Shown: positions 23,900 through 52,882, numbered from the stretch's first letter. The stretch: DNA of 53,709 nt from Candidatus Cybelea sp. (GCA_036489315.1 DASXFZ010000041.1:1-53709), one strand, 5' to 3'. The notes: a model not told the origin generated them from the letters alone. A program made the numbers and translations.

Positions 23900-24022
23900 G
23901 CCTCTTCGCTAAGCCCGCCAAACGGAAAACGGCCTAACTGCCGTGCATTTGCCGGACATGCTCGAAACTCGAGAAAAAGAAAGCCTCACGAAACATTATA
24001 TCCCGCAAGGCTTTCAAATCTC

Positions 24023-24094
24023 TGCACCGCGAAGGACTCGAACCTTCAACCAACTGATTAAGAGTCAGCTGCTCTACCATTGAGCTAGCGGTGC
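24023..24094 (-). tRNA. tRNA-Lys(CTT)
   Basis: Reverse-strand cloverleaf with acceptor GCACCGC/GCGGTGC, anticodon loop CTCTTAA (anticodon CTT), T-loop TTCGAGT, discriminator A. 72 nt, CCA not encoded. It is flanked by two integrase remnants, suggesting past use as an attachment site. A second lysine tRNA (TTT) lies at 38664. Confidence 0.97.
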
Positions 24095-24157
24095 ATATGC
24101 CTTTATCTATTAAGTTTTTGGCCTAGGCCCTTTTTCTTGGTCCGCCTAAGGTCCACC

Positions 24158-24436
24158 TTACGCGGCCTCGTTCTTGCCCTTGAGGTCCCGTAGGGCCGCA
24201 AAGGTTTCGCCCATGGCGCCGGCAGCGACCTTCTGCATTGGTCGGGATGTAAGCGCTGCAGGTCTTAAGGGTAAAGCCGATTTCTTTGTGGCCGAGCCTC
24301 TCGGACACGATCTCGGGGTGGATGTTGTGAAGGAGTAGCTGGATCGCGCAGTTGTGACGGAGACGATGGACCACGACACCCCCTGTAGACCGGCCGCCTC
24401 GCAAATTGCCCGCCAGACTTCGGCGTAGAAGTGGAG
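24158..24436 (-). pseudogene. Tyrosine recombinase C-terminal remnant with two frameshifts
   Basis: Reading the reverse strand, three successive segments in three frames assemble an integrase C terminus: an AEVWRAICEAAGLQGV segment, then VVHRLRHNCAIQLLLHN through SERLGHKEIGFTLKT, then MQKVAAGAMGETFAALRDL up to the stop near 24158. The HRLRH and LGH motifs are present, but the nucleophile position reads T-C-S instead of T-Y-S, so even the intact part would be inactive. This is a second, independent recombinase relic on the other side of the same tRNA. Confidence 0.8.
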
Positions 24437-24445
24437 CTGGAGTGG

Positions 24446-24854
24446 CTAGGATGTACGTCCCCAAGCCTGTGACTCGATCTTCCATTCGCCTCCGTGCTTT
24501 GCGAATGTGTACGCCAGGGTGCCGGTTCGAGCGACGGTTTGATTGTTGATCGTCACGGTCAGCGTCCCTGAGATGACGGCGTAAGCATAGGACCCTTCGA
24601 CATTCCAGAACCCCATTTCGTATGAGAGGTGCTCATAGGTCACGTGAAGGTCCTTACGCCATTTCGCGGACATCAGCGAGCCAGTTATCTGGAGCATTGG
24701 GATTCAGCCAGCGATATGGGGCTATACCGTCGATAATAATTGCCGTGTCGCCGAAAACGCTTCGGAATAGGGCGCCGTCCTGGGTGTTGAATCCATTGAT
24801 GTGGTTATCTATGAGACTCTGAATTTCAAGCGGTAGTGCGGGCGTAATGGTCAT
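24446..24854 (-). pseudogene. NTF2/SnoaL-like protein gene split by a frameshift
   Basis: Two overlapping leftward frames make one NTF2-like fold protein. The first (from ATG 24854) gives about 67 residues: an N-terminal helix with PLEIQSLIDNHINGFNTQD and a strand ending in DVREMA. It stops at TAA near 24653. The second continues with KDLHVTYEHLSYEMGFWNV through WKIESQAWGRTS. Removing one base at about 24655 (GCG-T-AAG) restores a continuous product of about 135 residues, typical of DUF4440/SnoaL-like proteins. It is either a real pseudogene, in keeping with the decayed neighbourhood, or a sequencing error. Confidence 0.7.
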
Positions 24855-25238
24855 CCTCCCATGTTGTCCAACCATATCACGTTCCGGGGATCAGTAGGGC
24901 GGGCCCAGGCCCGCAGGATCACCTTGCCCCGATGGCGCCGGAAAGGCCAACAAGGCCATTCGGTCAGTAACGATCCGAGCTGCTGGCAATGACGTCGCGG
25001 CGCGATTTCAACACTGCGACGCCGGCGAAAAACCGAGGGCTCCAGCACGAGCGAGCAAGCGCTGACTAGCGTGCTAACTAGCGCGCATTTTTCGTTAATA
25101 CGTCAACGTTTTCAAACATTGGTAATCGGCTCGTTTGCCAGGGGAAGCGAGCGAGTTGCTACCGTAGTAGTTTGCACGGTTTCCACCACCATTGCGTCGG
25201 TGGCATCGTTTAGCACCATAGCTGCGAAGGAGTTCAAG
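24855..25238. other. Divergent intergenic region, 384 bp
   Basis: No convincing gene is seen. The right half is less GC-rich than the surrounding coding DNA and contains the imperfect dyad at 25093-25108. The left half is GC-rich. It should hold the promoter of the small lipoprotein at 25239 and perhaps that of the broken NTF2-like gene. Confidence 0.5.
25093..25108. promoter_or_regulatory. Imperfect 16-bp dyad, copy 2 (candidate operator)
   Basis: CGTTAAT-AC-GTCAACG is a near copy (14 of 16 bases) of the perfect dyad CGTTAAC-AC-GTTAACG at 35513-35528. It lies 130 bases upstream of the lipoprotein start at 25239. Shared sequence and promoter position suggest a common transcription factor site; the factor is unknown. 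Confidence 0.45.
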
Positions 25239-25754
25239 GTGCGTATACTACTCGTTCTAACGGTTGCTGCGACACTTGGTCTTTCCGCATGTTCTGGCGG
25301 CTCACAAGCCGTGCCCGGTGGCTCGCAGTCAGTTTCCAGCGCTTCGAAGGCGGTCGCGCCGATGGGTCAGCATATCTATCTAGCCATGGTCGCCCGTAAG
25401 CATCCGCATGGGCGACAAATGTTAGCGTGCCCGTCAAAGTATTTCTCGTGTGAGGACGTGACGTGGGGATCTACGACCACGTATCAAACCTGCGTCATGA
25501 TCGGCTTTTCGTGCTCAAAAGATGCGTGGTACTTCGACCAGACGATGTTTACCTACGAGAATCATCGTCTGTCCTATCGCGTTCTCGGGGCCTTCAGTCC
25601 GAATCCTGGCGACCCGGTCCAGGGCTCGCTCACCGAAAGGTTCCAGCTCGCGCCTTCGGGCGGGATGGTTAAATACGACCAGCACATCGTCGCTTGTAAT
25701 CCCAACTACAGTCCGTCCTGCGTGGCCGGCGACGTGGGAATCATTCCCGACTAG
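25239..25754 (+). CDS. Small secreted lipoprotein, unknown function
   Basis: A 171-residue predicted lipoprotein. GTG at 25239 has a strong AAGGAG site 6 bases upstream, and the product begins with a short signal peptide and lipobox LSAC, which settles the start although the frame is open much further upstream. The mature part starts with a Ser/Gly-rich linker and then a compact domain with several Cys (around LACPSKYFSCED, QTCVMIGFSC and VACNPNYSPSC), suggesting disulfides. I do not recognise a family. It is followed by a strong intrinsic terminator and converges with the envelope operon. Confidence 0.75.
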   Translation: MRILLVLTVAATLGLSACSGGSQAVPGGSQSVSSASKAVAPMGQHIYLAMVARKHPHGRQMLACPSKYFSCEDVTWGSTTTYQTCVMIGFSCSKDAWYFDQTMFTYENHRLSYRVLGAFSPNPGDPVQGSLTERFQLAPSGGMVKYDQHIVACNPNYSPSCVAGDVGIIPD

Positions 25755-25782
25755 CGACGGTTCTGCGTTCCGCTCATCTAGA

Positions 25783-25820
25783 CGGGAGGCTCGCATGTAG
25801 CGAGCCTCCCGTTCGTTTTT
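25783..25820 (+). terminator. Rho-independent terminator of the small lipoprotein gene
   Basis: A perfect 12-bp stem (CGGGAGGCTCGC / GCGAGCCTCCCG) with loop ATGTA is followed by TTCGTTTTT. It lies 29 bases after the stop at 25754. The hairpin could also slow leftward transcription from the operon, but no U-run follows in that direction. Confidence 0.9.
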
Positions 25821-25836
25821 CGCGCTGCACGCAGGG

Positions 25837-26991
25837 CTACTGCTCGAGCTCGTGCACGCTGTTGGAGTTCGTGTCGGTGTAAAACAACGCCGCGTTGGTA
25901 TCATTGGTCCCCGTTGCCGCCAGCCCAAAGACGCCTTGGGTATGGCTCTTGTCGACGACCTTCGTGGCTAGGATCTGGCCCGCGGGCGTCAACTCGACGA
26001 GCTCGTTGGCGGTCCCCTTGGTGTTGGCTACGATAAGGTTTCCGTTTGGCAGCAGCACCGAGGCCAGCGGGGCGTTTAACGGCGAGCCGGCATGAATCAG
26101 TTTCCCGCAGGTCGTCTTGGCGTGTTTGCACTGGAACGTCTTGCCGCCCGGCTTAACGACGATCTCATCTTTCTCAAGCAGATTGCTCGCGTGCAAGAAC
26201 TCAACGACGGTGTTCGTCACGCCATCGACGATGTCGAGCGTATCGGGATAAGAGTTGTATTGAAGGCCCGAGGGGCCGAGTTTGCCTCCAGGGGCGGACT
26301 TGTTCACCGCAAAGCCGTCCGCTACTTCGGTCGCCTGCCCGTTACCGTAAAAGCCGACACTGATGCTGACGATCGACCCGGACTCGGCGTTGCTCACGTA
26401 GACATAGGCCGGCGAATAGGGCTCCATTGGATTCGCGCTTACCTCTGAGAGCGGCACCTTGAATAGAGAACCCGTATACGCCCTTATCTTCTTGGCCTCT
26501 TCGTTGAAGTTTACAACGGTGCCCCCGGCAAAACCCGCGACATACACCTCGGAAGCACCGGTTATCACACTCCCGTCGCAGCCCTTAATCGAGGCATCTG
26601 CAACAAAGCGAGTGGGCTTCGAACCCGGAGTTGGGTTCAGTACTTCAACCGTGGTCCCCGCTCCAGCCGCGCCGGACTTATCGCTAAAGTTGCATACGAG
26701 CAACTGTCCTTTTTGCAGCAGCCCGTGGCCGCTGGGGACGATCGATATGGAACGGGGACCTTTGTCGCCGTTGTGAGAATCGACCGTCGATCCGATCACG
26801 ACGTTCTTCGTGAGCTTCTTGAGAATCGACGTCGTGTCGGCCGGCTTCGCCACAGCGTCACGCGAGAAGAGCGGCGACCCGATGCCCTGCGGCGCGCTGC
26901 CTACGGGATTGACGCGGCTGGTCGCACAGGCAGAACTCGCAAGGAGCACCACCACGGCGCTGAGCGCGGCACGACTGCGGAATTTCAACAT
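25837..26991 (-). CDS. Beta-propeller-like lipoprotein, last gene of the envelope operon
   Basis: A 384-residue predicted lipoprotein. ATG 26991 is preceded by GAGGG at 7-nt spacing; the product begins with a signal peptide and lipobox SSAC. Upstream in-frame starts add a charged stretch without signal character and are rejected. The mature protein has repeated strand-turn units such as GQLLVCNFSD, SEVYVAGFAGGTVVNF, AYVYVSNAESGSIVSI and GNLIVANTKGTANEL, the pattern of NHL/6-phosphogluconolactonase-like propellers. It lies 23 bases after the first GloVer gene in the same orientation. Role unknown; surface sensing or polymer binding is conjecture. Confidence 0.75.
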   Translation of the reverse strand: MLKFRSRAALSAVVVLLASSACATSRVNPVGSAPQGIGSPLFSRDAVAKPADTTSILKKLTKNVVIGSTVDSHNGDKGPRSISIVPSGHGLLQKGQLLVCNFSDKSGAAGAGTTVEVLNPTPGSKPTRFVADASIKGCDGSVITGASEVYVAGFAGGTVVNFNEEAKKIRAYTGSLFKVPLSEVSANPMEPYSPAYVYVSNAESGSIVSISVGFYGNGQATEVADGFAVNKSAPGGKLGPSGLQYNSYPDTLDIVDGVTNTVVEFLHASNLLEKDEIVVKPGGKTFQCKHAKTTCGKLIHAGSPLNAPLASVLLPNGNLIVANTKGTANELVELTPAGQILATKVVDKSHTQGVFGLAATGTNDTNAALFYTDTNSNSVHELEQ

Positions 26992-27014
26992 CTCGGAGCC
27001 CTCACTTTTGCACA

Positions 27015-28220
27015 TCACGGCGACACCGAGTACACGATGCCGCAACACGAATAGTCGTCTTCTTTCTGACCGCCCCACGTTGTGTTGCCGTACAGAACGC
27101 CATTTACCACCGTCAGGCCGGCCACCGGCCCGAAGCCTTGGAGCTGACCTTTAAACGCATACAGCACCGTCTGAGTGCCGGTCTTCGTGAGCTTGTAAAC
27201 GACTCCGTAGTTACCCGGAGCGCCGAAAGCCGTCGTCCCGAAAAGCACGCCCTTGGCAAAGACGAGTCCGGCATCGGGTGCGGCTCCGTCGGTCCCGTTA
27301 AAGCTAAAAATCACCTTTTCTTGGCCCGGGAGCGAGATCGCAAATACGCTCCCCTTGTTGTTTGTGCCGCCCTTGCGCGTCGTACCGTAAAGCACCCCGC
27401 GAACCACGAGCAGACGGGCCTGCGGTTCGGCGCCGTCGCCCGCGCCGGCGAAACGGTGGATTATGGTCTCCGCGCCGGCCGGCGTGATCTTAAAGACGGC
27501 TCCCCCGCCGGCCGGTCCGCCGCCGGCGCTCGCCGTGCCGTAAAGCGCCCCGTTGAGCACGACCATTCTCGCGAAGGGTTTCTCGCCGTCCTGGCCGCCG
27601 CGAAAGCTGTGAAGGACCTTTTCCGTGCCGGACGGGGTGATCGAGAAAACGGTTCCCAGATTGTTCGCGCCGCCCTGGTAGGTCGTGCCGTAAAGGGTAC
27701 CGTTGAAGTTTACCAGGCTCGCGCGCGGATAGCTTCCGTCGGCATTCGCGCACTTAAAACTATAGAGGGTGTGCTCAGTGCCCGACGGCGTAATCGTGAA
27801 AACGATCCCGCAGTTGTGCGCGCCGCCCTGCTGCGTCGTTCCATAAAACTCGCCCTTTAGGTACGTAACTCCCCCGAACGGGCGTATGCCGTCCTTGCCC
27901 CCTGTAAATCGATAGAGCACCGTTTCATCGCCCGAAGTCGTCACTTTGAAGACCGTGCCGTAATACTGCGGCGACCAGCCCGCGTATGTCGTGCCGAAGA
28001 GGGCTCCGTTTAAACTGGTGAGGTCGGCAAATGGGCCGCCTCCGTTGGGGCCCCCGGTCCACCGATAGAGCAGCTTGAAAGTGCCGCCCGCGGCCGGTTG
28101 GCTGCGTGAAGCGCCATCGACACGCACGAGAGCCGCCGTACGCGGAATCGCCGAGGAGTTGCCCGATTGGGAGCAGGCCGCGAGCATCGCGGCGCAGGGG
28201 AGCAGCTTAATTATGTTCAC
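27015..28220 (-). CDS. GloVer-type tandem-repeat propeller lipoprotein (copy 1)
   Basis: A 401-residue lipoprotein (lipobox LAAC) with seven repeats of about 45-50 residues, each carrying a core like LYGTTxxGG preceded by a hydrophobic strand and followed by GTVFxI. This is the choice-of-anchor GloVer repeat. Seven units fit a seven-bladed propeller. The last unit ends in CCGIVYSVSP. It begins at GTG 28220 with GAGG 7 bases upstream and overlaps the preceding stop as GTGA. A paralogue of identical length and repeat number is three genes upstream (30476-31681). Such proteins are common in some soil phyla. Their ligand is not known. Confidence 0.88.
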   Translation of the reverse strand: MNIIKLLPCAAMLAACSQSGNSSAIPRTAALVRVDGASRSQPAAGGTFKLLYRWTGGPNGGGPFADLTSLNGALFGTTYAGWSPQYYGTVFKVTTSGDETVLYRFTGGKDGIRPFGGVTYLKGEFYGTTQQGGAHNCGIVFTITPSGTEHTLYSFKCANADGSYPRASLVNFNGTLYGTTYQGGANNLGTVFSITPSGTEKVLHSFRGGQDGEKPFARMVVLNGALYGTASAGGGPAGGGAVFKITPAGAETIIHRFAGAGDGAEPQARLLVVRGVLYGTTRKGGTNNKGSVFAISLPGQEKVIFSFNGTDGAAPDAGLVFAKGVLFGTTAFGAPGNYGVVYKLTKTGTQTVLYAFKGQLQGFGPVAGLTVVNGVLYGNTTWGGQKEDDYSCCGIVYSVSP

Positions 28221-29212
28221 TTTGTATCCTCTGTTCGACGGCTTTCGTCGAGGGAAGCCGGCGGACTGACCGCAACGCCGTAGACGCTCTTGAGGCCGCT
28301 TGTAATGCTCTTGATGCGCGTCCCAGCCGGATAGCTGTATTCGTCGACGGAGTTAGCGGCCGTGTTGGTTACGAACACGTAGTGCCCACCCGCATCAAGC
28401 GCGAGGAAACGTGGAGAGCCTTGCGCGGCAAAGGTTTTCGTTGGCATGCAAGAGAGTCCGTGACATTTTCCGCCTTTGGCAAAGACCTGAACGCCGGGGA
28501 GCGTGGCGTTTGCTACGAGCAGGCTGCCCGCGCTATTCGACACGACCCCCCCGTCTTCCCAGAACTTCAATCCGGACTGCAGGCCGAGATCCTCGCCTTT
28601 GGTCGTTCCGTGCCGATATTCGTAGTAGTACATGTACCAGTAGAGGTTCTCGTAGTTCACGTACATGTTGCCGGCGCCATCCAGCGTTAGACCGGTCGGG
28701 TAGCAGGAGCAGGGATTTCGAATCGTCGCCGACGGTTCCGCGGAACCCTTGGGAAACTCGACGACCGAGTGGGGAAACGAATAGAAATTCGCAACGTAGA
28801 GCATCCCGCTGCCATCGACGGCAACGTCGATCGGACCCGTCAAATCCTTGCTGAACGTCGCGACCGGCGTGTGGCCGCCTTCGCGGTACTCCGCAACGGT
28901 ATTGCCGGCGGTATTGGCGACGAAGAGGTCGCCCGATTTGTCGACGGCGAGTCCGGCCGGCGCGTCGATGCCCTGCGTGATCGTCGAAAGCTCCTTGACT
29001 ACCGACCCGGTAAGTTGGAAAACGTGCACTGCCTTGGCGACGGGATCGGAGACGTACAGTTTCAAACGAAGCGTAAAATGCTGTGCGCCCGGCTGGACGC
29101 GAAACGGCATGGTCTGCGGTAGCGTCTGGGCACCCTCTCTCGAGCATCCGCCGGCCGATGCCAGCGCGAAAAGCAGCGCGTATCCGCCTATCCGCAGGTT
29201 CATATCATTCAT
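28217..29212 (-). CDS. NHL-repeat propeller lipoprotein
   Basis: A 331-residue predicted lipoprotein (lipobox SAGGC). Repeated NHL units are visible, for example PAGLAVDKSGDLFVANTAGN, PIDVAVDGSGMLYVANF and PTGLTLDGAGNMYVNY, consistent with a six- or seven-bladed propeller. A tyrosine-rich insertion follows the third unit (around NLYWYMYYYEY). The first ATG at 29212 overlaps the stop of the phosphoesterase gene by 8 bases; a second ATG is three codons later. Its own stop overlaps the next GTG. Probable surface or periplasmic binding protein. Confidence 0.85.
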   Translation of the reverse strand: MNDMNLRIGGYALLFALASAGGCSREGAQTLPQTMPFRVQPGAQHFTLRLKLYVSDPVAKAVHVFQLTGSVVKELSTITQGIDAPAGLAVDKSGDLFVANTAGNTVAEYREGGHTPVATFSKDLTGPIDVAVDGSGMLYVANFYSFPHSVVEFPKGSAEPSATIRNPCSCYPTGLTLDGAGNMYVNYENLYWYMYYYEYRHGTTKGEDLGLQSGLKFWEDGGVVSNSAGSLLVANATLPGVQVFAKGGKCHGLSCMPTKTFAAQGSPRFLALDAGGHYVFVTNTAANSVDEYSYPAGTRIKSITSGLKSVYGVAVSPPASLDESRRTEDTK

Positions 29213-30476
29213 CGTCCGGCGCCGTGTTCGTTGCGTGGGCCTCGACGTCGCGGACGTCGTAGGGTGCGAGAATCGGGCGAAACGCGCTGGGCTTCTTCTT
29301 GAAGTCGAAGCAGTTCAGCGGCGCCGCGGCGCCCGAGTCGCTGCGCCCGAGCGCCGGCAGATCGAATCGTTGCTCTACGAACTTCAAGATGCTTCCGAAC
29401 CGGTACGGAGTATGGTCGACGTACCCCGGTTTGGCGAAGGGTGAGATGCAGAGCAGCGGCACCCGCATGCCGAGCCCGTCGAAGCCTTGCTGTTGAGGGC
29501 TGACGTCGTCGTACCAGCCGCCCCAGTCATCCCATATCACGAAGATTGCAGTAGAGGACCAGAACTTACTTTTCCCAATGGCGTTAACGACCGACGCCAC
29601 CCACGATGGCCCACGTTTGCTCTTCGAGCCGGGATGATCGGAAAGCGCGTTTGACGGGATCACCCACGTCACGCCGGCGAGCTGGCCGTTCGCGACGTCG
29701 TTCAGTATTTTGGTCTCGGGAAAGGACATGTGTTTTTGCCAATCCGGGCCGTTGCGAATTTTCGCGATCGCATCGAATGCGTTCCAAAGGTAACCGTCGC
29801 CCGTTTTCGGCGAGTAGTAGCGCCACGAAACGCCCTTTGAATCCAGACCACCGGCAATCGTCGAGTAGGTGAAACACGGGGTCTCTTCGCCGTAGGGCTG
29901 CCCGGCTACATTGAGCACGCCGATGACGTTGCCGGAGGGGCCGTCGCAGCCCCAGGGGGCATCGGCGGGGTGATTGTACGTTCGGCCCGCCCAACCGGCG
30001 ATCAAAAACTGGTGCGCAACGAAGCTGCCGTCCAACTGAGAGAACATCCGATCGCTCAGCACGTATTGCTGTGCCATGTCCCAGTAGGGCGTGATCTCGG
30101 ATTTGGAAACGTACTTGTACTGGGGATACGGATCACCGCTACCTTGACCGTTGCTATACTCGTTGGCGAAACCGTCCATTTTGCCCGAATCGTAGGCGGT
30201 CTTGGCGTCTTGAAGCCCGTGCGAGATGTCGTAGAAGGCCGCGAGAGAGACGGGCTTTAGCTCAGTCGTCTTTCCGTTGGGCAGTTTTCCCGTCGAGACC
30301 GAGTGCGCTCCGGGAAAGCCGTGGAACAGGTTATCGAAGCTGCGATTTTCCTGCACGATTATTACGATGTGATCGATCTGCGAAAGCCCGGCCTGCGGCG
30401 CCGGCGGCGTGTTCGCAAAACTGGCCGTCAATACGAGAGCAGCCATAACGATGAAGACGACCCGAATTCCCCGCAT
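29205..30476 (-). CDS. Secreted phosphoesterase (phospholipase C / acid phosphatase AcpA-like)
   Basis: A 423-residue exported enzyme of the phosphoesterase family that includes bacterial phospholipase C and AcpA. The signal peptide ends near residue 22. The hallmark N-terminal segment HIVIIVQENRSFDNLFHGFP binds metal through Glu/Asn, DGSFVAHQ is the likely nucleophile region, and FVIWDDWGGWYDDV supplies the second metal site. ATG 30476 is in a one-base overlap with the stop of the upstream GloVer gene (TGATG), which fixes the start. Substrate could be phospholipid, a phosphorylated glycan or another phosphoester. Presence in a glycosyltransferase operon makes a polymer- or lipid-linked phosphoester plausible, but this is inference. 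Confidence 0.87.
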   Translation of the reverse strand: MRGIRVVFIVMAALVLTASFANTPPAPQAGLSQIDHIVIIVQENRSFDNLFHGFPGAHSVSTGKLPNGKTTELKPVSLAAFYDISHGLQDAKTAYDSGKMDGFANEYSNGQGSGDPYPQYKYVSKSEITPYWDMAQQYVLSDRMFSQLDGSFVAHQFLIAGWAGRTYNHPADAPWGCDGPSGNVIGVLNVAGQPYGEETPCFTYSTIAGGLDSKGVSWRYYSPKTGDGYLWNAFDAIAKIRNGPDWQKHMSFPETKILNDVANGQLAGVTWVIPSNALSDHPGSKSKRGPSWVASVVNAIGKSKFWSSTAIFVIWDDWGGWYDDVSPQQQGFDGLGMRVPLLCISPFAKPGYVDHTPYRFGSILKFVEQRFDLPALGRSDSGAAAPLNCFDFKKKPSAFRPILAPYDVRDVEAHATNTAPDDE

Positions 30477-31681
30477 CACGGCTTCACTTTGTAGACGACT
30501 CCGCAGCAGACGGGTCCGTTTTTGCGCGGGTTGCCGCCGCCCCACGCGGTGGTTCCGTAAAGCTGACCGTTGGCATACATCAAACGTCCCACCGGACCGC
30601 GGCCGTGCGATTCGTTGAACCGGTGGAGAATGACTTCGGCGCCGTTTTCACCTATCTTGTAGACGGTACCGTAGCCATTGGTTCCGCCGGCGCTCGTCGT
30701 TCCGAAGAGCTCGTCGCCCACGACGACGAGTTTGGAAAGCGGCTTCGCACCGTCCGGACTTCCCTCGAAGCTGTAGAGCACCGTTTTTACGCCGGCGGTC
30801 GTGATCGTAAAAACCGTTCCAAGCCCCCGCGCGCCTCCAAGCCGCGTCGTGCCGTAAAGCTTGTTGCCGACGCGCGTCAAGCCCGCGATCGGCTGCGCCC
30901 CGTCGGCACCGCCCTTGAAACGGTAAAATATGCTTTCCTGACCGGACATCGAAATCTCGAAGATAGTTCCATAGTTCCCCGCTCCTCCGCCTTCAGATGT
31001 CGTGCCGAAAAGCAGGCCGTTTACAGCCGTGAGGCTCGAGTACGGATGCGCCCCGTCGGAGCCCCCGCGGAAGCGATGGAGTACCTTCTCCGGTTGCGAT
31101 GCTCCGATCTCGAAGACGGTGCCGTTCTGGCTCGAGCCCCCGAGATACGTCGTGCCATAGAGCATGCCGGCAACGTTCGTGAGATCGGAGCGTGGATATT
31201 CTCCGTCTTGGCCGCCGCTAAAACTGTGGAGCACCGTTTCCGTTCCGGAGGTCGTAATCGAAAAAACGGTTCCATCCGCCTTTGTACCGCCTTCTTGGGT
31301 CGTGCCATATAACAAGCCGTTTACTTCGGTCAATCCGCCAAATGGCTTCGCGCCGTCGGCGCCGCGTTTGAAGTCGTAGAGAACGCTCTCGGCACCGTCG
31401 GCCGCGACGGTAAAGACCGCGCCGACCTCCTTGCCTCCACTATAGGCCGTCCCGTAAAACGTGCCGTCGACCTCGGTGAGGCCGTCGAAGGGCGTCGCAG
31501 CATCCGGAACGTTCTTAAAACCGTAGATCACTTGATAAGGATGGGCGACCCCGCTCGACGCGTTTGCAGGGTTGACTCGAACGTCGGGCCCGATATTCAT
31601 CGGCGAACACGCCGCGAAAACGGCGCTGCAAACGACTAATATGCCCGCGCATCGGCAACCTAACTTTGCAAGAATCCGCAC
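30476..31681 (-). CDS. GloVer-type tandem-repeat propeller lipoprotein (copy 2)
   Basis: A 401-residue lipoprotein (lipobox FAAC) with seven GloVer units whose cores read FYGTAYSGG, LYGTTQEGG, LYGTTYLGG, LFGTTSEGG, LYGTTRLGG, LFGTTSAGG and LYGTTAWGG. The last unit ends CCGVVYKVKP, nearly the same as the end of copy 1. GTG start at 31681, 14 bases after the stop of the toroid-like gene. The two copies are separated by the phosphoesterase and the NHL protein, so this is an old duplication and not a fresh tandem repeat. Likely a seven-bladed propeller facing the periplasm or cell surface. Confidence 0.88.
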   Translation of the reverse strand: MRILAKLGCRCAGILVVCSAVFAACSPMNIGPDVRVNPANASSGVAHPYQVIYGFKNVPDAATPFDGLTEVDGTFYGTAYSGGKEVGAVFTVAADGAESVLYDFKRGADGAKPFGGLTEVNGLLYGTTQEGGTKADGTVFSITTSGTETVLHSFSGGQDGEYPRSDLTNVAGMLYGTTYLGGSSQNGTVFEIGASQPEKVLHRFRGGSDGAHPYSSLTAVNGLLFGTTSEGGGAGNYGTIFEISMSGQESIFYRFKGGADGAQPIAGLTRVGNKLYGTTRLGGARGLGTVFTITTAGVKTVLYSFEGSPDGAKPLSKLVVVGDELFGTTSAGGTNGYGTVYKIGENGAEVILHRFNESHGRGPVGRLMYANGQLYGTTAWGGGNPRKNGPVCCGVVYKVKP

Positions 31682-31695
31682 GGCGCCTCGGCGAC

Positions 31696-32895
31696 CTACG
31701 TTATTGCGATCCAGTAGCCGGTGACGAGCGCTTCGGCAGAATCCTGCACCGCACCGCCGTCGACCTGCAGTCCCCAGCGATAGCCGCCATCGGACGCGGC
31801 CGACAAGCCGAAAACGTGTTCGAGCGATCGTCGCGTTTCATTGTCGAGCCGGCCGGCGACTGCCAGCAGCTGGAAATACATTGCCGACGTAACCACGTCG
31901 TAATACGGTGCCGATCCGGAGCGGAACCCCGAGCCGCCGGTGCCGACATCGATGTAGGCAAAAAAAGCACCGTCTTTTGGCTTGGCCCAGCGCAGGAACG
32001 CGTCGACGGCGCTCTTCTGGCCCATGCGCTGCGCTCCCAGGGCCGACATCATCATGTTGTCCCCGATGCCGATCTTTCGGCCATCGTCCTCGATCTTGTA
32101 CCAGCGCCAGCGTTGCGCGGAGTAACCGCGCGGAGGGTAGCCCGGATCATAGTGGTCGTAATACGCGCCATTTGCAGCCTGGGCGCGGAGCAAAAACGCC
32201 TGACCGCCCGCAAAGAGTTTGGCGGTCGCGCCATCCCCGTTCGCCTGGGCGAAGTCATGCAAGGCGTCCCAGAAGAGCATCGCGACGTTGGGAACCAAGA
32301 GATTCTGAAACTGGCCGCCCGGAGTGGCGTACTGCATTGGGAAATCGAGGTTATCGACGAGCATCCCTTGGCGCTCGCCGTCCACCATCCGCTTGACGAA
32401 TTCTACGAATCCGCCCGCGATCCGAAGCTTGGCCGGGTCGGGGCGGAGCTTATGCGCTTCCATAACCGCTTTCGTCGCGGCCAATGCATCCGAGGAGTAG
32501 AACAATGGTGCCGGGTCGTTGGCGATCGAGGGCACTCCGCCGCCCACGAAGCGATTCGATGCGTAGGCCTTTTGCAGGCGGCCGAGGCCGCCGACGAGCC
32601 GATCTGCTACGTCGGGATGGCTTTCGTTGAGCAACAATATCGCGTACGCGGTCGCCAGCGGCGATTCTTCACCTGCGTGCGGACCAAACCGGTAGTACCT
32701 GCAAAGATCGTTCGACGTGACTTGATAGTTCAGAACCCATCGTTCGAAGGAGTGCCGCCGCCCCTCCGGGCCCGCGCCCGAGCAGGCCTGCGGCAGCGCT
32801 AACATGGCAGAGGGAAGGATCGCCGCGCCTGCGAGCCTCGCTAGGAAGCTCGAGCGGGGTACGGAGGCACTCCTGAAAGCTGGTTCATCCTTCAA
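31696..32895 (-). CDS. Lipoprotein with alpha/alpha-toroid-like fold, possible glycan-acting enzyme
   Basis: A 399-residue predicted exported protein: positively charged N terminus, hydrophobic core and a Cys at PQACSG that would be lipidated. The mature part is helical with recurring Asp/Asn/Tyr/Trp motifs (YYRFGPHAGEESPLATAYA, DNLDFPMQYATPGG, YYDHYDPGYPP, RWRWYKIEDDG, DNMMMSALGA), resembling (alpha/alpha)6 glycosidases and lyases. I cannot place it in a named family. The frame opens at TTG 32907, but TTG 32895 overlaps the barrel gene's stop (TTGA) and has GGAG about 7 bases upstream, so I use it. Position next to a glycosyltransferase and an outer-membrane barrel suggests a periplasmic enzyme that trims or modifies the polymer, as in other synthase-dependent systems. 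Confidence 0.65.
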   Translation of the reverse strand: MKDEPAFRSASVPRSSFLARLAGAAILPSAMLALPQACSGAGPEGRRHSFERWVLNYQVTSNDLCRYYRFGPHAGEESPLATAYAILLLNESHPDVADRLVGGLGRLQKAYASNRFVGGGVPSIANDPAPLFYSSDALAATKAVMEAHKLRPDPAKLRIAGGFVEFVKRMVDGERQGMLVDNLDFPMQYATPGGQFQNLLVPNVAMLFWDALHDFAQANGDGATAKLFAGGQAFLLRAQAANGAYYDHYDPGYPPRGYSAQRWRWYKIEDDGRKIGIGDNMMMSALGAQRMGQKSAVDAFLRWAKPKDGAFFAYIDVGTGGSGFRSGSAPYYDVVTSAMYFQLLAVAGRLDNETRRSLEHVFGLSAASDGGYRWGLQVDGGAVQDSAEALVTGYWIAIT

Positions 32896-33731
32896 AAGAT
32901 GCTCCAAATTCCGAAGGTTACCCCGCGCGCCTGGTAGACCGGGGCGCCGTTGGTCGCGTTAACCAAATGAGAGAAAAACCCATTGGCTTCGATTCCCCAC
33001 CGCGCTCCCCGCTGGGTAGTACGGCCGAGCTGCTGTTCGGTACCCACCGTGTAGGTTTGCCCAAAGTCGTTTGCAAGCGCTTGGGGCAGGCCGGGGATCG
33101 AAACCAGATATTGCTGCGAACCAAAGAGACCCGTCGCCGAATATTTCGAGCGTATCGTCGGGGTAACGTCCCACGCCGCGAGAAGCCCGCTCTTGGTCTG
33201 GGCGCCGGTGTTTGCGGCAACCAGATAGCGTAGTTGAACGTCTCCGCCGGGATAGTAGTATTGCGGTCCGGTGGAAAACTGCTTGAGCGTCGTGCCGCCC
33301 CAGTAGGTAACGTAGTCCTCGGCTACGGCCATAACGAGCCTGAGATCCGGCGTCGTCTTATAATCGAACTCGAGATGGGCATTCGTGTGCGAATACGGGT
33401 TCGACGTGCCGTAACCGAAGTTGAAGTCGCCGTAAAGGCGCGACGTTATCGAGTGGTTGATTCCGGCCGCGAAGTATTCCCCGTGCGTAGGAAACGAGAC
33501 GTCGCCGTCGGCCTGGTGCGCGACTTCAAAGTTAATCGCTTGGACGCCCGGCGTAACGAATACGATTTTCGCGTCTTGGATGATCCACGGTCCGTAGGCA
33601 TTGCCCGGGCTGCTAAAACCGATCGACGTACCGCTGACGTCCAGCCGGTCGTAGGCGTCCGCGAGCGCGACGCGCCCGCAGCACGAAAACGCCGCGCCGA
33701 CGAGAATACCGATTTGGACGGATCGCCTCAC
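32892..33731 (-). CDS. YaiO-like outer-membrane beta-barrel protein
   Basis: A 279-residue protein with a cleavable signal peptide (processing near ALADAYD) followed by alternating amphipathic strands and a C-terminal aromatic residue (GIWSIF), the sorting signal of outer-membrane barrels. Strand pairs such as YGDFNFGYGTSN, AHLEFDYKTT and the closing VYQARGVTFGIW recall the YaiO family. It starts at GTG 33731 in a GTGA overlap with the glycosyltransferase stop, with AAGGAG upstream. A barrel directly coupled to a membrane synthase is a strong hint of polymer export across the outer membrane. The YaiO call is by eye and moderate. Confidence 0.75.
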   Translation of the reverse strand: MRRSVQIGILVGAAFSCCGRVALADAYDRLDVSGTSIGFSSPGNAYGPWIIQDAKIVFVTPGVQAINFEVAHQADGDVSFPTHGEYFAAGINHSITSRLYGDFNFGYGTSNPYSHTNAHLEFDYKTTPDLRLVMAVAEDYVTYWGGTTLKQFSTGPQYYYPGGDVQLRYLVAANTGAQTKSGLLAAWDVTPTIRSKYSATGLFGSQQYLVSIPGLPQALANDFGQTYTVGTEQQLGRTTQRGARWGIEANGFFSHLVNATNGAPVYQARGVTFGIWSIF

Positions 33732-35293
33732 AAAATGACTCCTTCGGCAATTGATGCCGCAGATGAGCGCTCAGACGGGCAACGCGCCCGCTGCGCGCTC
33801 TCGCCTCCCGGTTTTATTAGCCCTTGCTCGACGGAAACTTCCAACGCGCTTGGTCGTCCGGGCGCGCCTTGTGCCAGTGCGAGATCGGGCTCGGCTTCAG
33901 CGTTCACCGTAACGTTGCTGACGTGCGGCGTATGATACAGCCAGTCCGCTTTCCCCACGCTGAATATCGCCCATATTACAGCCGGCGGCCAAGCGAGAAC
34001 GGTAAAGATAAGCGTGTAAAATGAGTACAGGAGCACCCGGCCGCCCCTAACGAACGGATTTTTGCCGAGCTTCTCCGCGCCCCAGAAGCCAACGACCTGA
34101 TAGCCAAAGATGAAGAACAGCGCAATCCCTTCAAAGACGCGTTGGACCGTTCCACCCGCTAAGGGTCCCGTGATTGTAAAGTCGCGAACCCAGATCCCGG
34201 CTAGGATTGGCCAGGTGAGAAAACTCGCCAGCAGCGCGAAGGGCACGAGATAATAGAGCGCGAGTTCCAACAGCGCGATGTCACCGCGGACGATGCCTTG
34301 CCAAAGGCAGCGAAAGAAATGGTAGTACGCCACCCGCGAGTGGCCGCACATCCAGCGCATGCGTTGCCGGATCGCCACCCAGATATTCTGCGGCTTTTCG
34401 TCGTAAATATGTGCCTCGGGAACGTAGCCGACCCGAACCCCGGATTCGACAGCCAAAATTCCATTGAGCTCGATGTCTTCGGTCTGCGTCCGCGTACCGC
34501 CCCAGTGTTTGCGCAGCAGCTTCGCCTCGCAGCACCAACCCGTCCCGCATATGAGCACGCTGCAAAACGTGCGCATGCGTCCCGTTAAGTACATGCGGGA
34601 GGCAGAGACGCAGGAACACCATAGCGCTTTGGTGATCCAGTTATCCGACCCGTTGAGGACGTCGTGAAATGCCTGCATGCAGCGAAAGCCGCGCGTTTCT
34701 ATGGCGTTGTTCATCGATTGGAGATAGTTAGTGCCAACGACGTTGTCCGCATCGAAAACCGCCACGTACCGGTCGTCGTCTTCACTCAAGAGTTCTCGAA
34801 ACGCATAATCGAGAGCTCGGTGTTTACCAAAGCCTCTGGTGGGAGTGAACATCACCTTTGCGCCGAGGTCGCCCGCGATCTGCGCCGTGTTGTCCGTTCC
34901 GTCGAAGATTACCCAGATCTCGTAGAGCTCTGCCGGGTAATCCTGCCCGAGTAAGCTCAGCACGGGATTTACAATGACGCGTTCCTCGTTATACGCGGGA
35001 ATCATGCAAATAAAGCGATGCTTTGGCGGATGAGGCGGGTTCGGCCGCAGCTGAGGAAAACTGAAAAGCATAAAACCTAGTATCGGAAATACCCAAACTA
35101 GGTAAACGAGCGCGCAGGTCGGGTAGTAGATCAGGTTTACGTTTGCGTGGTAATGCTCCGCGCGCATGGCCCAGAGCGACACTGTGACCAAAAGTGGAGC
35201 GCCGACGATCAGTACTGCGGCTAGCGGTGGCATTCGCAGCGACAAGATCGCTTTGTGGCAAGCTCCTTTTGCCAAGCCAACCATTCGACTCAT
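33728..35293 (-). CDS. Processive family 2 glycosyltransferase (membrane polysaccharide synthase)
   Basis: A 521-residue inner-membrane glycosyltransferase. Two N-terminal membrane segments (about residues 22-45 and 53-80) precede a GT-A domain with MIPAYNEE, the metal-binding DAD, the acceptor-site TED and the QxxRW signature RQRMRW. Three or four more membrane segments follow. This is the cellulose/hyaluronan/PNAG synthase plan. The stretch around LWCSCVSASRMY and CSVLICGTGWCCE is unusually rich in Cys close to the active site. No PilZ domain is present. ATG 35293 has GGAGA at 5-nt spacing. It heads the operon, so the polymer product is presumably the reason for the downstream barrel and lipoproteins. 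Confidence 0.92.
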   Translation of the reverse strand: MSRMVGLAKGACHKAILSLRMPPLAAVLIVGAPLLVTVSLWAMRAEHYHANVNLIYYPTCALVYLVWVFPILGFMLFSFPQLRPNPPHPPKHRFICMIPAYNEERVIVNPVLSLLGQDYPAELYEIWVIFDGTDNTAQIAGDLGAKVMFTPTRGFGKHRALDYAFRELLSEDDDRYVAVFDADNVVGTNYLQSMNNAIETRGFRCMQAFHDVLNGSDNWITKALWCSCVSASRMYLTGRMRTFCSVLICGTGWCCEAKLLRKHWGGTRTQTEDIELNGILAVESGVRVGYVPEAHIYDEKPQNIWVAIRQRMRWMCGHSRVAYYHFFRCLWQGIVRGDIALLELALYYLVPFALLASFLTWPILAGIWVRDFTITGPLAGGTVQRVFEGIALFFIFGYQVVGFWGAEKLGKNPFVRGGRVLLYSFYTLIFTVLAWPPAVIWAIFSVGKADWLYHTPHVSNVTVNAEAEPDLALAQGAPGRPSALEVSVEQGLIKPGGESAQRARCPSERSSAASIAEGVIL

Positions 35294-35854
35294 TTCGGTC
35301 TCCGAAGATAGTGCCGGGTAGCTAAAATATTCGCGAGGCCTATCGTGGCTGCGATACCGTTCGTACTAAGAGGTGAATCCCCTCGCGCAACGCCGTGCTA
35401 TTTTGGCTTGCGTTCGGCGACCGACAATTTCCGACGAACGAAAGAACACTTTTCGAACGTAAAAACGCGCAACTGCATGGTTACATTGAGCGAGTAAGTT
35501 CATTCTCTTATCCGTTAACACGTTAACGTACGATGCAAGTACAGTGCAAGATGTTTGGGCGGCGTTGAAGTCGCAACGCGACGAGTTTAGGACGCTCGAC
35601 ATCATCTATAACGTGCGCGGGTTATAGACGTAAGACGCTACTCGTTCGTCGATCGCATCGACGATGCAAACGCTTCAGGGAAGCGAGCGTGCCATTGTCC
35701 GAAAGCTTGGCCGATGCCTGCATCGAGCGTCAGGGAGCGGATGGGCGGCGGCCCGATCCGCGCTCAGGCGGGGCCGCCAAGCCTGGATTCCGGCGTTTCG
35801 CCTCCGCTCCGTACGCTCGGAGGATGAATAAGCAAGCAGCGCCAAATTGCGACT
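35294..35854. other. Divergent intergenic region, 561 bp
   Basis: Promoter region between the leftward envelope operon and the rightward PQQ-like gene. It is visibly less GC-rich in its middle third and contains the perfect 16-bp dyad at 35513-35528. No convincing small gene or RNA was seen; short open frames here have no ribosome site or coding character. Confidence 0.6.
35513..35528. promoter_or_regulatory. Perfect 16-bp dyad, copy 1 (candidate operator)
   Basis: CGTTAAC-AC-GTTAACG is a perfect 7-bp inverted repeat with a 2-bp spacer, the size expected for a dimeric regulator. It lies 220 bases upstream of the glycosyltransferase start and 327 bases upstream of the PQQ-like gene. A near copy occurs at 25093-25108. 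The binding protein is unknown. Confidence 0.5.
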
Positions 35855-37294
35855 ATGCTCCAGAGATCGAGCGCCTTTGCGATCGTCTTTTTGATGACGG
35901 GGCTTCCCGCACGTGCCGTCGATTGGCCCGTTTTTGGGTTCGATCCGGCCCGCAGCAGCTTCAACTCTTCCGAGCGGGCGCTCACGGTCGGCAACGTCCA
36001 TCGCCTGCGTGAGCGATGGCAGATCGCGTTCGGGGCCGGCTTGGTCGCGGACTCGACGCCGATTTTCCTCAATCGTGTGCGTATCGGGCGCTCCCACCGC
36101 CCGATGCTGTATCAGACGACCACAAGCGGCGTTACGTTCGGCATCGAGGCGCTTTCAGGACGAATCGTTTGGAAGTTTGCAACCCACGGGCCGAAGTACA
36201 CGCGATCCACGCCGGCAGCGGATCCGTCCGGCGCGGCAATCTACGCCCCGGGGGTCGACGGCAAGGTCCACAAACTCGACGCTGCGACGGGTCGCGAGGT
36301 TCGATCGGCGGGTTTCCCGGCCCGCGTCTCGCATATGCCGAATACCGAGGCGGACGACGCTCCGCTCAACGTTGCCAATGGTTATGTGTACGCAACGACC
36401 TCCGCGTACAACGACGACGACGCCCTGCCGTACCTCGGGCACGTGGTCGGCGTTAGCCTCACGAGCGGCGAAGAGCGAGTCTTCAATTCGCTGTGCAGCA
36501 AGGTGCACAAGCTCCCCGAACCCCATTTCTGCCGGCAGCAGCGCTCGGGAATATGGTCGCGCGGCAGCGCCGTCGTCGATCCCGACTCGTCGATGAACGG
36601 CCGCATCTACGTCTCGACGGGAAACGGCGACTTCAACGCCAACACCGGCGGCCACAACTACGGCGACTCCGTGCTCGCGCTTGCTCCGGACCTTTCGGAC
36701 CTGTACGGGAGCTATACGCCGACGGACTACCAGCAGCTACAGGAACGCGATCTGGACATCGGCAGCACCTCGCCGACGCTCTTGCCGCGCCAGCCGTCGA
36801 GCACTACGCCGTTAATGCTTGCACAGGGCGGTAAGGATGGCGTGCTGCGGCTGGTCGATCGTGCCTCGCTCCCCGGCGTCGGCGGAGAGTTGCAAATGCT
36901 CAATCTGCCGTCTGCGCTGTTTTCCACGCCCGCAGTGTGGACCGATGCCTCGAATAACGCGTGGATCTTTATGGGATTTCCAAGCGTCGTTCAGGCATAT
37001 CGTCTGGAGACCAGCGCGTCGGGGGTCAGCCAACTCGTGGGCATCTGGCAAAACGCTGCGGGCTCGACGGTACTCGGTACTTCACCGGTGGTCGCCAACG
37101 GCATCGTCTTCGTCGCGTTCAACGGCCAGATCGTAGCGCTCAATGCGCGCACCGGGTCCGAGCTCTGGAGCAGCGCGACGTCGAGTTCGGGGAAGACGAT
37201 CGGCAGCGTCCACTGGGAGAGCCCGATCGTTGTCAACGGCTGGGTCTACTGCTCGGACCACAACGGCAGCTTAACCGCCTACGCGTTACCGTGA
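35855..37294 (+). CDS. PQQ-like beta-propeller secreted protein
   Basis: A 479-residue exported protein: signal peptide cleaved at ARA-VDW, then a PQQ-enzyme-like/BamB-like propeller. Typical blades contain GVTFGIEALSGRIVWKFATHG, GKVHKLDAATGREV, GIVFVAFNGQIVALNARTGSELWS and the final GWVYCSDHNGSLTAYALP. Tryptophan-docking Gly-x-x-x-W repeats are present, but I do not see a clear calcium/PQQ active site, so an enzymatic role is doubtful. It is transcribed divergently from the polysaccharide operon and may belong to the same regulon, given the shared upstream dyad. Confidence 0.82.
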   Translation: MLQRSSAFAIVFLMTGLPARAVDWPVFGFDPARSSFNSSERALTVGNVHRLRERWQIAFGAGLVADSTPIFLNRVRIGRSHRPMLYQTTTSGVTFGIEALSGRIVWKFATHGPKYTRSTPAADPSGAAIYAPGVDGKVHKLDAATGREVRSAGFPARVSHMPNTEADDAPLNVANGYVYATTSAYNDDDALPYLGHVVGVSLTSGEERVFNSLCSKVHKLPEPHFCRQQRSGIWSRGSAVVDPDSSMNGRIYVSTGNGDFNANTGGHNYGDSVLALAPDLSDLYGSYTPTDYQQLQERDLDIGSTSPTLLPRQPSSTTPLMLAQGGKDGVLRLVDRASLPGVGGELQMLNLPSALFSTPAVWTDASNNAWIFMGFPSVVQAYRLETSASGVSQLVGIWQNAAGSTVLGTSPVVANGIVFVAFNGQIVALNARTGSELWSSATSSSGKTIGSVHWESPIVVNGWVYCSDHNGSLTAYALP

Positions 37295-37311
37295 CGCCGT
37301 AGCGCCGTCAC

Positions 37312-37345
37312 AAAAAAGCGAGCCCGCTTTCGCAAGGCTCGCTTT
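37312..37345 (-). terminator. Intrinsic terminator of the NHL lipoprotein gene, possibly bidirectional
   Basis: Stem AAAGCGAGCC / GGCTCGCTTT with an 11-nt loop; read leftward it is followed by a further run of T (six in total), the correct polarity for the gene ending at 37431. Rightward the stem itself ends in TTT, so it may also stop the PQQ-like gene, whose stop is at 37294. Confidence 0.85.
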
Positions 37346-37430
37346 GCTTAGGACTTCAGCTGCACTGCGGCAGAACTTTAGAATAGCCGCCTGACTGCTG
37401 AGCTAGTCAACGAAGAATCGTCGGCAACAG

Positions 37431-38507
37431 CTACTTGTTGCTGATGGCCGCGCCGATCGGCTCTGAAATGCCGGTGGTCGTGGAGTTGGTCGGCGCGCCG
37501 CCGGCCGGATAGGCCCAACGGGCCGCTACGCTCGGAGCCGATCCCTCGGAGATGCATCCGCCCCCGTAGTACTTGCCTCCCGGGGAGATCACCGCTTGAT
37601 CGACGTCGCAGCCACCGCCGTCGGTGTTGGTAAGCGGCGTCGAGCCAGTGATCGTTGCGACCGAGCCGGAAACCGTGACTGCATATAGGCAAGACGCACC
37701 AGCATCATTGCACTCTTGGTCGCCAAGGATCAAGCCGGCGTTCTTGTTCCAGTTTACCGAGCCTGGGAAGAACAGGGTGCCGCCGCTGACGCTGACCGTC
37801 GTCATGTTGCTGCTTCCGCTGGGAAGCACGGAGAGCGAGTATCCGGCGCCGCCTTCTCCACTTACGTAGAGGTTCCCGTTGCCGTCATAGGCATCGAAGA
37901 AGTTTTCAGACTGGCTAGGATTGCTGTACTGCGTCGGCGTCCCGGTCGCATTGGGATACACTGCGACGGTGCCGTTACCGGAGGTGTTGAAGATGTTCGT
38001 AACGGCGAGATCGCCGGTTGCCTTGTTGATAGCGCAGCCGACCGGAAATCCGATCGAGTCGCTCAACGTGTTGAGCAGCGTTCCGGTGCGGGAGTATTGA
38101 AGGATTTGCTGCGTTCCCGTGTTGGTGATCCAGATGTTGCCCGATTTGTCGCTGCACATGCCTTGCGGCTCGCTGAGGCCCGTGAGCGTTCCCTTGAGTG
38201 CCATCGCCGGCATCGTGAAGATGTAGACGTCATTCGTGCCGTCGTCCGCAACGAAAAGCAGTCGAGGGGCGTTCTTGGCGTCGGGTGAAACGTGCGACTT
38301 ACTCTTGTCGCTGTGCACCTTCGGCGCCTTCACCGACGTATACGTAGCGTGGGGACCGCGCGCGCCCAGGGCGTGCGCACCACCCACCGCTGCTGGATTC
38401 ATGCCCATCGTGGGCGTCGAAGACTGCGTCCCGCCGCTACAGCCGGCGAGCAATGCCGCAACCCCCAGCGTGCCTAATGCATGCTGAGCCGTTCTCGACA
38501 ATTTCAT
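37431..38507 (-). CDS. NHL/YncE-like propeller lipoprotein
   Basis: A 358-residue predicted lipoprotein (lipobox LAGC) with a long Ser/Thr/His-rich linker to about residue 80 and then NHL-like blades: PQGMCSDKSGNIWITNTGT, PVGCAINKATGDLAVTN and FFDAYDGNGNLYVSGEG. A strong AAGGAG site 9 bases upstream and a clear terminator downstream indicate a monocistronic, well-expressed gene. It is separate from the operon at 25837-35293 but belongs to the same class of surface proteins. Confidence 0.82.
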   Translation of the reverse strand: MKLSRTAQHALGTLGVAALLAGCSGGTQSSTPTMGMNPAAVGGAHALGARGPHATYTSVKAPKVHSDKSKSHVSPDAKNAPRLLFVADDGTNDVYIFTMPAMALKGTLTGLSEPQGMCSDKSGNIWITNTGTQQILQYSRTGTLLNTLSDSIGFPVGCAINKATGDLAVTNIFNTSGNGTVAVYPNATGTPTQYSNPSQSENFFDAYDGNGNLYVSGEGGAGYSLSVLPSGSSNMTTVSVSGGTLFFPGSVNWNKNAGLILGDQECNDAGASCLYAVTVSGSVATITGSTPLTNTDGGGCDVDQAVISPGGKYYGGGCISEGSAPSVAARWAYPAGGAPTNSTTTGISEPIGAAISNK

Positions 38508-38663
38508 GCTGAAATGCTCCTTTTTGAGATGGAGTAATGTTCCGAGCGAACCTGATACGCCGAAACGCTAAAGTTCCCTACGAATAAGGGCGGCCTCTTT
38601 CTTAGAACGCTGGTCTTCAATAGGTAGCCCCTGCAAGAGGTCTGTTGCAGGGGCTACGGTCTC

Positions 38664-38736
38664 TGCGCCCTCCGGGACTCGAACCCGGGACCAACGGATT
38701 AAAAGTCCGCTGCTCTACCGACTGAGCTAAAGGCGC
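38664..38736 (-). tRNA. tRNA-Lys(TTT)
   Basis: Reverse-strand cloverleaf with acceptor GCGCCTT/AGGGCGC (one G-U pair), anticodon loop CTTTTAA (anticodon TTT), T-loop TTCGAGT, discriminator A. 73 nt, no encoded CCA. Last of four leftward tRNAs. Confidence 0.97.
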
Positions 38737-38746
38737 GCCGCTTTGG

Positions 38747-38821
38747 GGTGACTGACGGGATCCGAACCCGCGACCTCCGGTTCCACAGACCGGCGCTCTA
38801 ACCAACTGAGCTACAGTCACC
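38747..38821 (-). tRNA. tRNA-His(GTG)
   Basis: Acceptor GTGACTG/CAGTCAC with an encoded extra G at position -1 and discriminator C, both specific to histidine tRNA. Anticodon loop CTGTGGA (GTG). Separated from tRNA-Lys by 10 bases. Confidence 0.97.
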
Positions 38822-38882
38822 ATACGTCGTGCTTCTTCCCCGAACTTGCTGGGCATCCATCGCCGGCCGCCGGCCCTCCACA

Positions 38883-38956
38883 CGCGCCCGGAGGGACTCG
38901 AACCCCCATCATCGAGTTTAGAAGACTCGTGCCTTGTCCTGTTAGACCACGGGCGC
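38883..38956 (-). tRNA. tRNA-Arg(TCT)
   Basis: Acceptor GCGCCCG/CGGGCGC, anticodon loop CTTCTAA (TCT), T-loop TTCGAGT, discriminator G, no encoded CCA. Reads the AGA codon, which is rare in this GC-rich DNA. Confidence 0.96.
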
Positions 38957-39000
38957 AGGAAGGCATGGACCCTCCCAGAGGATACCACGCCTTCAATATC

Positions 39001-39074
39001 TCGGGACGACAGGAGTCGAACCTGCGACCTTCCGCACCCAAAACGGACGCTCTACCTGGCTGAGCTACGTCCCG
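39001..39074 (-). tRNA. tRNA-Pro(TGG)
   Basis: Acceptor CGGGACG/CGTCCCG, anticodon loop TTTGGGT (TGG), T-loop TTCGACT, discriminator A. First gene of the leftward tRNA cluster Pro-Arg-His-Lys. Confidence 0.97.
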
Positions 39075-43258: not shown

Positions 43259-43287
43259 AACGCTTCTACTGCTGTAACCACGACGAG

Positions 43288-43383
43288 AGTCAGGTGGTTC
43301 ACGGCACCCGTAAGTGCTCGCTTACCGTTGCTACCTTCCGGTTCTGGCGGGGTTCACGAGTTTACGCCGCGCGAAGCCCAACT
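43288..43383 (-). ncRNA. ffs: Signal recognition particle RNA (4.5S type)
   Basis: On the reverse strand the conserved domain IV apex reads GCCAGAACCGGAAGGTAGCA, the GGAA tetraloop and asymmetric internal loop that bind Ffh. Flanking sequences pair, ending in a terminal stem of AGTTGGG with CCTGACT (G-U pairs allowed). About 96 nt, the short bacterial form without the Alu domain. It lies upstream of the DUF4446 gene. Ends are estimated from pairing. Confidence 0.9.
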
Positions 43384-52831: not shown

Positions 52832-52882
52832 CAGACGCAACCGGTGGGGCGCCAAAGGCGTTCTAGCGAAAGAGATCAATCG

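Follow-up and report, generated by a model that had tools for sequence, protein, structure and literature searches.

The window analysed here, 53,709 nucleotides long, comes from an uncultured soil bacterium of Candidatus Eremiobacterota and represents one contig of a genome of 3.09 Mb in 64 contigs. An ORF check of the window identified a predicted operon of eight genes, all on the minus strand at positions 25837-35293 and arranged in the order A to H. The operon lies within a larger insert between two tRNA-Lys genes, and the features of this region are the following.

A, 33728-35293, minus strand: family 2 glycosyltransferase, predicted processive polysaccharide synthase, 521 residues
B, 32892-33731, minus strand: YaiO-like outer-membrane β-barrel, predicted polymer exit channel, 279 residues
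C, 31696-32907, minus strand: exported (α/α)6 toroid, predicted glycan-acting enzyme, 403 residues, starting at TTG 32907 or TTG 32895
D, 30476-31681, minus strand: GloVer repeat lipoprotein between C and E
E, 29205-30476, minus strand: secreted AcpA/PLC-type phosphoesterase starting at ATG 30476, with a longer GTG ORF from 30545
F, 28217-29212, minus strand: NHL propeller, probable lipoprotein
G, 27015-28220, minus strand: second GloVer repeat lipoprotein, a local addition
H, 25837-26991, minus strand: propeller-like lipoprotein of a genus-expanded family, starting at ATG 26991 in an ORF from 27078, a local addition
Hairpin, 25781-25813: 14 pairs with a T-tail on the plus strand, between H and a convergent ORF (25071-25754), candidate shared terminator
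Insert, 24096-38663: 14.57 kb between tRNA-Lys(ctt) and tRNA-Lys(ttt), holding the operon
tRNA-Lys(ctt), 24022-24095
tRNA-Lys(ttt), 38664-38736
Integrase fragment, 24123-24485, minus strand: C-terminal part of a tyrosine integrase next to tRNA-Lys(ctt), matching PF00589 at 1.5e-4, below the cut-off, over profile positions 127-162 of 172

With the likeliest start codons, five of the seven junctions overlap, exactly as the original prediction had described for these eight leftward genes: A/B by four bases (GTGA), B/C by 16 (or by four, TTGA, if C starts at the TTG at 32895), D/E by one (TGATG), E/F by eight, and F/G by four (GTGA). The C/D and G/H junctions leave gaps of 14 and 23 bases. The T-tail of the hairpin downstream of H was scored on the plus strand only, and terminator-like sites in the region were not enriched over shuffled sequences. 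A sigma-70 promoter scan of the operon region was uninformative, returning fewer sites than the shuffles. On visual inspection, lipoprotein-like N-termini are seen in D, G, and H and, less clearly, in F; B and E appear to carry ordinary Sec signals, and C an export signal.

The A protein matches the GT2 family PF13641 in Pfam (1.5e-19), and its profile matches solved BcsA chains. The motifs FDGTD, DADN, TEDIE, and QRMRW (D, DxD, TED, and QxxRW) are invariant across four orthologues, and by this motif set A would be classed as a processive family 2 polysaccharide synthase; its flanking membrane segments were judged from hydrophobic stretches only. YaiP, a GT2 of E. coli, is a remote homologue with 25% identity. 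No second GT2-barrel system was found in the same genome: the barrel search returned one copy, and no barrel lies near the GT2 genes at C43 and C55.

The B protein scores 16.4 bits against the YaiO barrel family PF19413, below the cut-off of 23.9 bits. Its homologues in other genomes of the phylum exceed this cut-off (32.1 bits in G034, 48.1 in G113, and 40.5 in G097), and B is 35% and 31% identical to the homologues in G034 and G113, respectively. We therefore consider B probably related to the YaiO family, though outside its curated cut-off. The link to YaiO rests on the Pfam scores of these homologues, because the comparison of E. coli YaiO with the barrel profile was weak, giving no match and an hhalign probability of 23%. 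The model of B, computed from an alignment of ten sequences, is a barrel of 14 strands (pLDDT 78) and superimposes on CymD, FadL, OmpG, and CymA-type channels with Z-scores of about 18-20. The Foldseek list for this model also includes 4y25, which is titled a polysaccharide outer membrane secretin and which we take to be PgaA. The 14 modelled strands are fewer than the 16 to 18 of published synthase translocon barrels, the number that defines classical synthase-dependent export (PMC9601211).

The C protein has no Pfam or NCBIfam match and no meaningful match to the PDB by sequence. Its model is an (α/α)6 toroid of low confidence (pLDDT 65, from a four-sequence alignment), for which VIA-align gave the sugar 2-epimerase 3vw5 as the best structural match (Z-score of 20.9, 302 residues, 3.5 Å). 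GH8, GH88, and GH76 enzymes follow at Z-scores of about 17-18, and BcsZ appears in the Foldseek list, which also ranks terpene cyclases high. Terpene cyclases also adopt toroid folds, so that the fold by itself is no proof of a glycan substrate, and we regard C as a predicted, exported glycan-acting enzyme. Its orthologues were found only in three other Eremiobacterota, for which the public-record relatives are the Candidatus Eremiobacterota MAGs palsa_1483, palsa_1484, and CP_BM_ER_25; a search in plasmids found none. Another toroid found beside related barrels, C2, was compared as a possible homologue of C and treated as a separate family at an hhalign probability of 2%.

As for the accessory genes, D and G are GloVer proteins (TIGR03803) with seven repeats (5e-73, 240.7 bits) and six repeats (1e-74, 245.9 bits), respectively, against a cut-off of 44 bits, with repeats that may fold as propellers. 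E belongs to PF04185 (1.6e-56, 192.4 bits), and its QENxSFD and DD motifs align with those of the acid phosphatase 2d1g, so that both the family score and the catalytic motifs support the assignment. F matches the NHL family PF01436 (1.2e-8), and H shows a weak SGL-like propeller match (0.006). The family readings previously made from the sequence alone held for A, D, E, F, and G; those of B and H stayed below threshold, and C found no family in Pfam or NCBIfam. A literature search yielded no publication on GloVer proteins, nor any on propeller lipoproteins that serve polysaccharide export.

Of 149 genomes in the phylum, just three have strong homologues of A and C: two members of the same genus (G045 and G052) and one genome of the same family but another genus (G034). 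G045 and G052 show the order A-B-C-E-F, which all three species of the genus thus keep, with identities of 46-71%; the E orthologues are 63% identical in G045 and 67% in G052, where F falls into two reading frames next to an unknown base of the assembly. In G034, the order is A-B, toroid C2, a PQQ propeller, C, and another C2, and tblastn found neither E nor F on that operon contig. D, G, and H were found by tblastn on none of the three operon contigs. The contig of G045 stops about 0.9 kb past F, so that H could lie further out; the position of D is inside the contig, and D is clearly absent. Conservation of the gene order in relatives, by which the original prediction proposed to be judged, thus extends to A, B, and C and fails for D, G, and H, which by this comparison are variable local additions to a conserved core. 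The conserved core, its order, and the turnover of accessory genes are read directly from these genomes. A PQQ gene of the window (35855-37294) was also considered as an orthologue of the PQQ gene of the relatives and rejected at only 19.6 bits.

Homologues of the barrel were found more widely, in 16 of the 149 genomes including that of the window. Twelve of these genomes carry it beyond A-type operons, and a PgaC-like GT2 adjoins it in 11, the twelfth contig ending there. By profile, all 12 loci hold a hexapeptide/bactofilin-like repeat protein, one of them cut by a contig end. Toroid C2 is present at six and a PQQ propeller at four, and a 600-residue protein with a weak deacetylase or glycosidase-like match gave strong profile matches in four and fragments in three more. 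With the three A-type relatives added, the loci number 15 and span several genera and two families; a GT2 adjoins the barrel in 14 of them (the fifteenth contig ends first), C2 occurs in eight, a PQQ propeller in five, and an NHL propeller in two more. We consider this linkage the main support both for a polysaccharide role and for the propeller as a recurring neighbour. The operon of the window shares with the 12 loci a homologous barrel and an adjoining GT2, with C2 and PQQ propellers found at the proportions given above. It differs in the GT2 subfamily, in the absence of the hexapeptide/bactofilin protein, and in having toroid C in place of C2.

The nearest parallel appears to be the yaiO-yaiX-yaiP-yaiS locus of E. 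coli, which is annotated and uncharacterised; a literature search found no functional study of the yaiO locus. Its annotated order in K-12 is yaiO (barrel), yaiX (acyltransferase, broken by IS2), yaiP (GT2), and yaiS (deacetylase). Both loci combine a GT2 with a YaiO-family barrel in one gene group, and the hexapeptide protein and the occasional deacetylase-like protein of the Eremiobacterota relatives recall yaiX and yaiS. The operon of the window, however, has no hexapeptide or deacetylase gene and contains toroid C, phosphoesterase E, and propellers in addition. With PgaABCD (PNAG) and BcsABZC (cellulose), it shares a processive-type GT2, an outer-membrane barrel, and a predicted exported enzyme, C being modelled with a fold similar to that of BcsZ. 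In contrast to these, it lacks a TPR domain, a PgaD- or BcsB-like subunit, and PilZ, its barrel is modelled with 14 instead of 16 strands, and C is outside GH8 by sequence. Classical synthase systems have a TPR scaffold and a second inner-membrane subunit; Pfam detected no TPR-containing protein among the eight products or the scanned neighbours. The missing PilZ, previously called unusual, is not remarkable, as to our knowledge PgaC-type synthases also lack PilZ.

The position of the insert is equally evident from comparison. The same two tRNA-Lys genes are only 5 to 8 bases apart in five relatives (G051, G042, G050, G033, and G054), which share with the window the neighbouring trigger factor/ClpX and GNAT/Ham1/LepA genes. 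One gap further on, between tRNA-His and tRNA-Lys(ttt), G033 and G054 have insertions of some 3 and 7 kb, and the spacing from tRNA-Leu to tRNA-Lys(ctt) ranges between about 0.9 and 12.7 kb. Because neighbouring tRNA gaps also hold inserts or vary in size, the tRNA-Lys region can be regarded as an insertion hotspot. The GC content of the insert is 0.597, compared with 0.64-0.66 in the outer flanks, and the part at 19.3-24.0 kb is similar to it at 0.609. A search around the insert found no att repeats, and the integrase is a fragment, so that the intact integrase and flanking att sites of an integrative genomic island are both missing; the difference between the occupied and the empty tRNA site is clear. 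The insert likely arrived horizontally or by recombination. The operon contigs of G045 and G052 contain no tRNA genes.

We interpret the operon as a lineage-specific version of a YaiO-type locus for polysaccharide synthesis and export, the core of which produces a surface polysaccharide and exports it, and assign this reading a probability of about 0.62. From the families and folds we infer the polymer, its export step, and the functions of C to H as follows. A would polymerise a nucleotide sugar and move the chain across the inner membrane, exported C may trim or epimerise it in the periplasm, and B would release it through the outer membrane. The propeller lipoproteins on the envelope (F in three members of the genus; GloVer and H only here) may hold the polymer or partner enzymes. 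E would act as an exoenzyme, for which scavenging of matrix phosphate is more likely than cutting of the polymer. The absence of a TPR scaffold or second inner-membrane subunit, the 14-strand model, the EpsU match of A described below, the pLDDT of 65 for C, and the sub-threshold score of B count against this reading.

The core of synthase, outer-membrane barrel, and exported enzyme postulated in the original prediction is supported by the adjoining GT2 in 14 of 15 loci. Its further proposal, a new secretion machine built as a single surface complex of all eight products, with four propellers binding or decorating the polymer and the phosphoesterase releasing it, seems very unlikely to us. The tight, overlapping gene order, the recurrence of a propeller beside the barrel in relatives, and the conservation of E-F with A-B-C in two relatives would fit such a complex; however, none of the three orthologous operons contains D, G, or H, and that of G034 also lacks E and F. 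Moreover, the same families are abundant in this genome, with 59 PF04185 matches, about 20 GloVer genes (133 repeats, grouped by hand into frames), at least 17 NHL frames (150 of 233 first-look candidates scored), and seven copies of the H family, which is present in 44 of the 149 phylum genomes. In the stretches C13, C40, and C60, phosphoesterase, H, GloVer, and NHL genes lie close together with neither a GT2 nor a barrel. By these comparisons, we rate the operon as a variant of a known but uncharacterised kind of locus and not as a new secretion system.

This clustering could instead indicate a composite locus, in which the synthase core and an unrelated phosphoesterase-propeller cassette were joined in one transcription unit and share no mechanism. 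Of 20 GloVer genes, 8 have a PF04185 gene within 3 kb, versus 2.45 expected when the typed positions are placed uniformly at random on a line of 3.09 Mb with contig extents approximated (p about 0.001); when this contig is left out, 6 of 18 do, versus 2.19 (p = 0.018). In the H family, five of seven members have such a neighbour, or four of six versus 0.75 expected without this contig (p = 0.004), and the proximity of NHL genes to PF04185 was not significant in the same 3 kb test. Part of the GloVer and H clustering could reflect a common tendency of these genes to lie in variable regions. At C59, the paralogue most similar to E within the genome (56-59%) is followed by a homologue of F (47%), so that the two-gene cassette E-F also occurs on its own, and the insert itself occupies a variable tRNA site. 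A chance join would, however, not predict A-B-C-E-F in three species at such identities, nor the propellers recurring beside the barrel in other genera, and we consider a composite locus unlikely, though not implausible. Doubts about the core itself arise from the best NCBIfam match of A, EpsU (5e-33, far under its cut-off), a transferase of a Wzx/Wzy pathway (PMC7484181), since A could then be non-polymerising. It might modify a lipid-linked or lipopolysaccharide glycan, with B serving as a general channel, in line with the likeness of B to OmpG and CymA and with the lack of a TPR or partner subunit. The full processive motif set, the BcsA profile match, and the linkage of PgaC-like GT2s to the barrel across the phylum argue against this, and we find it distinctly unlikely.

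Within our interpretation of a YaiO-type locus, one may speculate about an exchangeable display system, in which the exporter works with interchangeable propeller lipoproteins that anchor a matrix holding phosphorus-scavenging enzymes at the cell surface, the propeller class being swapped between species; we offer this only tentatively. For these soil bacteria, the E family in any case points to an unusual expansion of phosphoesterases. The comparison separates the core genes of such an operon from the exchanged ones, and the recurrent association of barrel, GT2, toroids, and propellers in a largely uncultured phylum provides a testable case for polysaccharide export by YaiO-type barrels.

The tRNA cluster carrying the segment that contains the operon is an insertion hotspot, and relatives differ in which of its gaps hold inserts; here, the segment (24096-38663) lies between the two tRNA-Lys genes. 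The features of the cluster, its surroundings and the structural RNA genes of the window are as follows:

19423-20736, (+), GH72-like gene (weak match), adjoining the insert
21234-23591, (+), sulfatase gene, adjoining the insert
24022-39074, tRNA cluster Lys-Lys-His-Arg-Pro
35855-37294, (+), PQQ_2 propeller-type gene, located within the insert, upstream of the operon and not part of it
37431-38507, (-), NHL propeller-type gene, also within the insert and, like the PQQ_2 gene, upstream of the operon and not part of it
43285-43383, bacterial small SRP RNA gene
52358-52832, RNase P RNA (class A) gene

Relatives of the sulfatase with 64-68% identity occur in many members of the genus, residing elsewhere in those genomes where both were locatable. 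A separate stretch of the window's own genome (L071, G000:C47:27634-32433) groups three GloVer genes with several NHL genes, without a synthase.

Across the phylum, we observed loci combining GT2, hexapeptide/bactofilin and barrel genes with the second toroid family, C2 (L034, L035, L037, L038, L039, L029 and others), which resemble the yaiO group of E. coli. In E. coli K-12, the acyltransferase gene yaiX, located between yaiO and yaiP, is broken by IS2 (L080:6845-8873); therefore, K-12 may lack the phenotype of the locus.

The PF04185 phosphoesterase family, represented in the operon by the gene at 29205-30476, has 59 matches in the 3.1 Mb genome, whereas only two of the 14 control genomes contain any. 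Genus relatives hold similar numbers, counted as first-look candidates. The expansion is unusual and perhaps plays a role in phosphorus acquisition.
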